Assembly: GCF_010183535.1 (NCBI RefSeq)
Contig: NC_071331.1
Coordinates: 7,502,001 to 7,566,000 of the forward strand
Direction: 5' to 3'
DNA from: Caenorhabditis remanei
Taxonomy: Eukaryota; Nematoda; Chromadorea; Rhabditida; Rhabditidae
Length of the DNA stretch: 64,000 nt
In this document: piece by piece, positions 26,472 through 28,022 of the stretch
Position numbering within the stretch: position 1 is the stretch's first letter
Layout: the number at the start of each line of letters is the position of its first letter
Made by a program: the position numbers and the translations under genes
Notes under the pieces: model-generated
Told to the model about the DNA's origin: nothing
The model's database searches: none
Seen by the model: only the letters and a program-made list of their open reading frames with translations

Positions 26472-26563
26472 GCAACAACTCGAGTCGATGTCGAACACAT
26501 AGACAACAAGAGAAGTCAAAACTCAAGAAGTCTGAAAGCACCAAAAAAGGAATCGTACTCAGG
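26472..26563 (+). other. Candidate untranslated leader exon
   Basis: Bounded by an 'atatttcag' acceptor and a 'cag|ggtaagc' type donor (GT 26564). The next acceptor, 'cttattcag', starts an exon at 26640 that contains the BTB frame. No frame passes from this exon into the BTB frame without a stop, so it is more likely 5' UTR. This follows from splice motifs only. Confidence 0.4.
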
Positions 26564-26918
26564 GTAAGCACTATTAGAAAAAATTTACCGTTATGTTATG
26601 AGCAAGCTGACGTGTTGAAAGACAATTTCTCTTATTCAGGCGATAAATCGACATCAGTTCTCGGCTACGTTCGTGACAAAATCCGAATTTCATTCCCGGT
26701 CCTCGAAGATTCTGCAAATCGAATCACTCATCGTTGGTGCCATACGGAAAGCTACATTAGCAACGGATTGAATCATCACGCCCTCGACAACAAATACCAC
26801 TTGGGATCACCATCACAAAACCTTCGATAAATCAAGAACCAAGGAAGGAAACGAAATCGTCCGAGCGACGAATCATCGACAAGTGAGCCGAAAGCACCGT
26901 CTCGCATCAGAACTCAAA

Positions 26919-28022
26919 ATGAAAGTCGAAACATATCACGACCGTCGTACTGATGAAATGCGACTGCTAATCGATAAGAGAACTTTCACCACGAAAAAGG
27001 AATACTTGTTGCGACAAGAAGGAGTCTTAAAGAGGCTCATCGAAGTCAACGACGAAACAAGATGTGAAACGATGATCCTCGATATCCCAGGAGGTAATCC
27101 GGATAAATTTCAACTGATTCTAAATTACCATCGAAACGGTTTCGTAGACCTACCACAAGCGACGGATGACATCAAAACGATAAAAGACGAAGCGATTCGT
27201 TATGGCTTAGAAGGACTAGCAATGTCGTGCGACGAAAAAATAAAGAGAGAAGAATTCGTCGAAGAAAGAATCCAATGGCTTGCCAGATTCTTCCGCTTCG
27301 GACTAGCGTACAATGAGCCGGTGCCACAATCAACCTGGATTCCACAAACAGAATTGGAAAGTGCGATCTTCCGTGTAACGATGCAAAAGTACGACTTGGC
27401 GATGGCATCAGAGGCGCAATTCCAGGTAAACATACCGAGTGTTTTCATCCAAAATAACTAGTAATTACAGACTAAAACAACGGGAAATACGTTCCGACTA
27501 CGCCAATTCTTCGAATTCCTCGAGAGACCTAAAACCAAATACTCAAAATGGTATGAATTCGCAGAAATTCTCCAAGCACATCTGGAAAACTTAGTAAGAA
27601 ACGAGAAAAGATTCGGAACGCGACTGAAAACGGAGAAGAGATCAAAAAAACAAATCATCGAAATGAAAACAGGAGCGATCAAAAGAATCCAGATTCACCG
27701 AATCGATAGTGAAACCTTCCCAGTACACGTACGTACGAATCTCGAAGTGAGTAAAATCATATCAATACTCTCGGAATTCGGAGAAATTGTCGGTTATCAT
27801 CACCGTCCGTCTGCAAGATTCCCAACTCCTGATTTTATGTTTATTACATACAAAAACCGAGAGAGCCAAAGAGCAGCACTCCAAGCACAATACGTTATAG
27901 ACATGGAAGGAAGGAAAGTGATGATCCGGCAAGCATTGCCGCCGTATAACGGGCACAAACCGGTGTATCAACCGTACGACGAAACATCGGCAACAAGAAA
28001 TGGAAAGGCGAACAATATCTAA
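26919..28022 (+). CDS. BTB(T1)-RRM accessory protein of the retrotransposon
   Basis: Two coding exons, 26919-27425 and 27471-28022, joined across a 45-bp GTAAAC...TTACAG intron with exact frame continuity (352 aa). Residues about 14-105 match the T1-type BTB/tetramerisation fold of KCTD and Kv proteins: MRLLIDKRTFTTKKEYLL, then DKFQLILNYHRNG, then IKDEAIRYGLEGL. Residues about 253-325 look like an RRM: ILSEFGEIVGY, RNP1-like PDFMFITYKN (289-298), AALQAQ, RKVMIRQALP. The middle is basic and helical. The frame is open upstream to 26772 but the first ATG is 26919; splicing from a leader exon is likely. AATAAA follows at 28203. A role in RNA binding or particle assembly is inference. Such a gene before gag is not typical of BEL elements. 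Confidence 0.72.

Follow-up and report, generated by a model that had tools for sequence, protein, structure and literature searches.

A 64,000-nucleotide stretch of the Caenorhabditis remanei genome (hereafter the window; C4:7502001-7566000, contig NC_071331.1) contains a young long terminal repeat (LTR) retrotransposon of the BEL/Pao type, here named E1, in which an intron-bearing gene, ORF1, is located between the 5' LTR and gag; its spliced product of 352 residues comprises a KCTD-type BTB domain followed by an RRM. The favored reading, to which a probability of roughly one half is given, is that this element carries a recent and exchangeable BTB-RRM module, the product of which would be oligomeric and bind the RNA of the element. 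A gene of this kind at this position, BTB(T1/KCTD)-RRM and interrupted by an intron, had been proposed by eye in an original prediction, and it is upheld here by a BTB_2 score over the cut-off, an RRM fold and a pair of LTRs identical at 806 of 808 positions. Genome searches covered 130.47 Mb in 186 contigs, and all features of E1 described below are on the plus strand of the window.

The BTB-RRM gene and the element that carries it

ORF1 consists of exon 1 (26919..27425), a 45-bp intron (27426..27470) with GT...AG borders and in-frame stops, and exon 2 (27471..28022), and the protein relative P0001 is collinear with the spliced product over the junction. The BTB match in exon 1 (~26982-27224) scores 27.5 bits with the Pfam BTB_2 profile (4.2e-6; curated cut-off 21.4), as compared with 27.4 bits in P0001 and 29.1 bits in a second genomic copy of the gene (copy 2, described below), and the solved structures closest to it by sequence are KCTD10 and KCTD13 (BACURD3/1). 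On this evidence ORF1 is assigned a KCTD/T1-type BTB. It shares the profile and the best solved relatives with the KCTD/BACURD proteins, but its BTB has diverged from the host copies (33-46% to the 12 that were aligned, out of 18 found) and is followed by an RRM. The RRM in exon 2 (~27708-27956) has the expected beta-alpha-beta-beta-alpha-beta fold; all 50 of the 50 structural matches listed for the protein cover or include it, and as this list is filled by the RRM it says nothing on the rest of the protein, the BTB resting on sequence profiles. Both domains were therefore recovered, one by profile and the other by fold. A misreading of the domains by eye is ruled out by the agreement of the BTB profile, the PDB sequence matches and the RRM fold, the Pfam RRM score itself remaining under its cut-off.

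The 20 genome matches to the BTB half are E1, copy 2 and 18 weaker host-like sequences, of which 17 are located on C2 and one on C3; the BTB of ORF1 resembles a host KCTD gene cluster, to which it is related. For the RRM half, the genome matches are E1 and copy 2 only, and no RRM donor was found in the genome. Among 1558 protein candidates, a single one was retained at E<=0.001, namely C. remanei CRE_19891 (352 aa, 91%). The three proteins differ without insertions or deletions at 22 (E1 and copy 2), 27 (copy 2 and CRE_19891) and 32 (E1 and CRE_19891) residues, and a chance open frame is ruled out by the equal length of the three frames. The expected presence of the gene in another copy was confirmed by the module at the second locus, and CRE_19891 provides a further close relative. 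The distribution of ORF1 is narrow: at least 139 places in the genome, fragments included, match Peptidase_A17, a domain of BEL/Pao pol, in comparison with two copies of ORF1, and ORF1 therefore belongs to a very small subset of BEL/Pao elements.

E1 itself (25415-39694, 14.3 kb) is bounded by a 5' LTR of 808 bp (25415..26222) and its direct repeat, the 3' LTR (38887..39694), between which follow in order the module with ORF1, ORF2, gag and pol. The gag frame (30902..34117; 1071 codons, stop to stop) encodes zinc knuckles and has no Pfam family at E<=1, and the pol frame (34029..38852; 1607 codons, stop to stop) encodes a protease, a reverse transcriptase, Peptidase_A17, an integrase zinc domain and DUF5641 (Pfam scores 9.7e-51 for Peptidase_A17, 8.4e-12 for RVT_1 and 1.6e-12 for DUF5641). 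With near-identical LTRs around gag and a Pao-type pol, E1 is classified from its sequence as a BEL/Pao LTR retrotransposon.

Proposed exchange of modules in the slot upstream of gag

The accessory module (26472..28060, 1589 bp) comprises a host-gene piece and ORF1, and its borders are defined by comparison with copy 2 and with a sister element, E2 (L057, C4:10.8735-10.8801 Mb). The alignment of E1 with E2, at 87%, breaks off after 26471 and starts again, at 90%, from 28061, with no match inside the module. In E2 the slot is occupied by an unrelated sequence of ~960 bp with exon-intron-like signals and a 142-codon frame (stop to stop), for which neither another genome match nor a protein match was found (none of 6 candidates reached E<=10), Pfam giving only SNAPC3 at 0.11. 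The leader ends in both elements, and in copy 2, with ...ATTTCAG, a border that resembles a 3' splice site. The LTRs of E2 differ at 2 of 808 sites, as in E1, its gag (at least 513 codons, to the edge of the piece examined) and pol (1608 codons) frames are open, and a 5-bp GTTAA is found on both of its flanks. Because the LTRs are equally young and gag and pol are open in E2, elements of the E1 type and of the E2 type are both judged to have inserted recently. With a different sequence in this very slot of E2, the module of E1 looks like an exchangeable add-on.

Copy 2 (L026, C4:4.046-4.0517 Mb) is truncated and consists of a 5' LTR, an intact ORF1 and a bit of leader, followed by a 119-bp repeat array. 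It shares the module with E1 up to 28060, continues with ~153 bp of other sequence, and regains similarity at ~28102. Similarity between E1 and copy 2 is ~97% in the module versus 80-83% in the LTR interior, and to the right of the module copy 2 is 92% like E1 and 95% like E2. The non-coding part of the module is conserved between E1 and copy 2 to the same degree as the coding part (97-100% per 100 bp), and recent exchange is therefore favored over mere constraint. These comparisons suggest that module and backbone have different histories, and that the module has moved between backbones. The module would have been acquired within this lineage, and recombination would later have carried it from one element backbone to another, the simplest route perhaps being template switching by the reverse transcriptase between co-packaged RNAs.

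The leader that flanks the slot was identified at three loci, E1, copy 2 (C4:4.05 Mb) and E2 (C4:10.87 Mb), as those with the full 255 bp left of the slot (among 11 matches) and the leader right of it (among 4 matches); ORF1 is present at two of the three. Other relatives of E1 give less information on the slot. Two copies on C148 (L074, L075) match E1 from window position 28314 onward only and are uninformative on ORF1. In the relatives at C5:5.14 Mb and C3:13.31 Mb, a gene resembling ORF2 is present, and the longest plus-strand frames in the 4.1-4.2 kb upstream are 102 and 88 codons; for a relative at C4:21.96 Mb, a DNA match upstream of ORF2 was not found. An LTR relative at C6:1758 kb (L058) has no further match to the 5' part of E1 within the 7.1 kb examined.

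The part of the module upstream of ORF1 includes a fragment (26583..26843) of a host zinc-finger-like gene, the donor of which was located at C4:104 kb (L003). Window positions 26623-26804 match this locus at 81% (E 2.1e-40) and 26583-26640 at 84%, and similarity continues beyond an internal deletion that is flanked by two CACTTGG repeats; the whole alignment scores 308 versus a maximum of 44.7 in 50 shuffles, and the part after the deletion alone 44.8 versus 33.5 in 200 shuffles. The C4:104 kb locus can be read as a gene interrupted by a 42-bp stretch that has GT...AG ends and is itself open in frame, and the zinc-finger likeness of the locus in Pfam is weak (0.05). This interruption is absent from the element piece, and a protein relative (P0003, 50%, with a precomputed zinc-finger domain) likewise lacks the 14 residues that it would encode. 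A spliced RNA as donor would explain the absence of the intron; gain of the intron by the host gene, or an intronless paralogue as donor, may instead account for it. As the piece is broken and is located upstream of the BTB start codon, it can at most form part of the leader. The sequence TTATTCAG, once the end of an exon in this piece, now resembles a 3' splice site opposite GTAAGC at 26564.

The module had originally been seen as a possible captured host gene, and this idea holds in part. The BTB is related to the host KCTD family, and a host piece is indeed present in the module, but it derives from a different gene than the one meant, and a recognizable host donor outside the element was found for this upstream piece only. 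Capture of BTB and RRM as a unit found no support: no host BTB-RRM gene was detected in the genome, the RRM half is matched nowhere but in the two element copies, and the donor of ORF1 itself was not identified in these searches. The role suggested originally, in RNA packaging, export or silencing evasion, is likewise conjectural.

Proposed role of ORF1 and competing explanations

BTB domains of the KCTD type form closed oligomers or bind cullin-3 (CUL3), and most RRMs bind RNA. The combination of an oligomer with an RNA-binding domain therefore suggests multivalent RNA binding: the BTB would build a ring-like or other oligomer, through which the RRMs would bind RNA at several points. The message for ORF1 would be spliced from the LTR transcript, and the unspliced RNA would serve as genome and gag-pol message. 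The likeliest client may be this unspliced RNA of the element itself, for nuclear export, stability or packaging. A precedent is offered by Cer1 of C. elegans, an LTR element of the Ty3/Gypsy type. The accessory protein of Cer1, CERV, is produced by splicing, is predicted to form a ring-like multimer with a possible RNA-binding part, and is needed for nuclear export of unspliced RNA (PMC10309623). CERV and ORF1 are analogous as accessory proteins of Caenorhabditis LTR elements, and differ in that CERV has exons in common with gag and is divided into domains named H, G and M; the main text of that paper contains neither the word BTB nor the word RRM (PMC10309623). Since LTR elements with introns must export unspliced RNA, and Cer1 uses CERV for this, we favor by analogy a role in RNA handling ahead of the status of a passenger or of a CUL3 adaptor. 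As a more tentative extension, nematode BEL/Pao elements may possess a 5' slot in which modules are swapped by recombination, the BTB-RRM protein being a new oligomeric RNA-handling factor, convergent with CERV and Rev, that was recently assembled in part from host pieces.

Selection on ORF1 was estimated from E1 and copy 2, which differ by 39 substitutions and 22 amino-acid changes (NG86 dN 0.027, dS 0.080, omega 0.34, bootstrap 0.18-0.70). In exon 1, with the BTB, omega is 0.21 (0.08-0.50). The reading frame thus appears to be modestly constrained, the BTB exon more than the RRM exon.

A number of observations weigh against the favored reading. In exon 2, with the RRM, there are 11 nonsynonymous and 4 synonymous changes (omega 0.75, 0.24-3.65); the substitutions in ORF1 fall at codon positions in the ratio 14/10/15; and random placement of the same substitutions yields 22 or fewer amino-acid changes at P 0.037, or at P 0.012 with the added absence of a stop, which is a modest signal. 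The RRM_1 scores of ORF1 and its relatives (12.8-14.1 bits) are below the Pfam cut-off of 20.7. The RRM-like domain of Nup35, which dimerizes and is no classical RNA binder, is among the best structural matches to the ORF1 RRM, and RNA binding by ORF1 is therefore not assured. With respect to exchange, E1 is as similar to copy 2 as to E2 (96%) in the leader to the left of the module. On this side, the drop in similarity between E1 and copy 2 is therefore located inside the LTR and not at the module border, and may reflect no more than a fast divergence of LTR interiors; the argument for different histories is then carried by ~360 bp to the right of the module. Finally, as E2 lacks ORF1 and is equally young with open gag and pol, ORF1 was probably not needed for the spread of this lineage and is probably not essential to it.

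Some of these points are shared by the explanation that ORF1 is a neutral passenger, in which template switching trapped sequence of host origin that is carried along without benefit, the frame being open because the copies are young. This explanation is possible, if doubtful: it accords with the youth of E2 in spite of its lacking ORF1, with the broken state of the zinc-finger-like piece in the same module and with the modest signal of selection, but it has to accommodate a 352-aa frame that is open in three sequences 22 to 32 residues apart, an omega with an upper bootstrap bound of 0.70, the P of 0.012 for the small number of changes together with the absence of a stop, and the persistence of an intact ORF1 in copy 2, where the rest of the element is missing. 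A rather unlikely role is that of a CUL3 adaptor, in which the BTB would recruit a ubiquitin ligase of the cullin-3 type, and the remainder of the protein would deliver for degradation a host factor that acts in RNA silencing or is otherwise bound to RNA, with a logic like that of Vif. In its favor, the nearest solved BTBs, KCTD10 and KCTD13, are CUL3 adaptors by name, and a host relative matches them far more strongly still; against it, the BTB of the element is diverged from all aligned host copies, and some KCTD proteins do not bind CUL3.

It is very unlikely that the modules of E1 and E2 descend without exchange from one ancestral gene that diverged beyond recognition. They share the 3' splice-site-like AG at which they begin, and each shows exon-intron signals; however, the match falls from at least 84% to none at both borders with no DNA similarity inside, the best hit of a tblastn search with E1 ORF1 against half of E2 (E 0.61) is outside the slot, and the lengths differ (1589 versus ~960 bp). 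Still less probable is an ordinary host gene in or beside which the element landed. The host-like family of the BTB and the presence of an intron would be in keeping with it, but ORF1 is enclosed by two LTRs that are nearly identical, its borders are the same at two loci with different surroundings, and it has no other genome match of comparable strength. A nested host gene is ruled out by the second copy with the same borders.

To our knowledge, few LTR elements carry accessory genes, and in most of these the gene is 3' of pol. Captured ORFs in LTR elements are already known from bdelloid rotifers (PMC5408684) and from Bs1 of maize (PMC13317346). The rotifer elements likewise have modular extra ORFs of varied origin that are common to several retroelements; there the addition is an ORF3 beside ORF1 (gag) and ORF2 (pol), enzymatic or env-like, whereas the slot of E1 is 5' of gag and contains BTB-RRM. 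Maize Bs1 is similar to the E1 module as an LTR element with pieces of host genes, several in the case of Bs1, and differs from E1, an animal BEL/Pao element with a complete frame beside a fragment of another host gene. Narrow searches of open PMC text found neither an LTR element whose accessory gene encodes a BTB or an RRM nor a BEL/Pao 5' slot with exchanged modules. The different contents of the 5' slot in two equally young sisters show how retroelements may try out accessory functions, and E1 and E2 provide a natural comparison of the same backbone with and without BTB-RRM. If ORF1 does act on unspliced RNA, factors of this type would have arisen two or more times among the retroelements of nematodes, from different domains.

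Other features of E1 and its surroundings

The leader of E1 (26223..26471) begins right after the 5' LTR with a primer-binding-site-like start TGGTGCATC, of which 9 bases match tRNA-Gly, presumably the primer, and a purine-rich stretch precedes the 3' LTR. ORF2 (28640..30115; exons 28640-28716 and 29209-30115, joined in phase by a splice predicted from the sequence) is a second accessory gene and is more widespread than ORF1, with 15 genome matches; it occurs also on C148, C3 (13.31 Mb) and C5 (5.14 Mb). Its product is coiled-coil-like and glutamine-rich with Gag-like zinc knuckles (27% to Gag over 51 residues, E 5.7e-4). Between E1 and E2, where it is located at C4:10876001-10876921, ORF2 looks constrained, with an omega of 0.22 (0.13-0.37), a value that includes ~26 codons before the predicted splice site and comes without a randomization test.

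The two element remnants on C148 are located in a near-perfect inverted duplication (99.9% over the 3.8 kb compared). At the C6 locus (C6:1752000-1759100), an LTR that is 73% like that of E1 is followed after ~1 kb by a frame of 568 codons in which an ELM2 domain (1e-8) is recognized, and which may be a host gene or the cargo of an element. No target-site duplication was found at E1, the flanks of which run on as a paralogous repeat unit without duplication. E1 is embedded in diverged direct repeat units with a spacing of ~260-400 bp (window 23.1-25.4 kb and 39.7-41.9 kb), and its flanks are continuous with an empty unit. Further downstream, the frames at 42084-44300 of the window resemble a nematode seven-transmembrane chemoreceptor.
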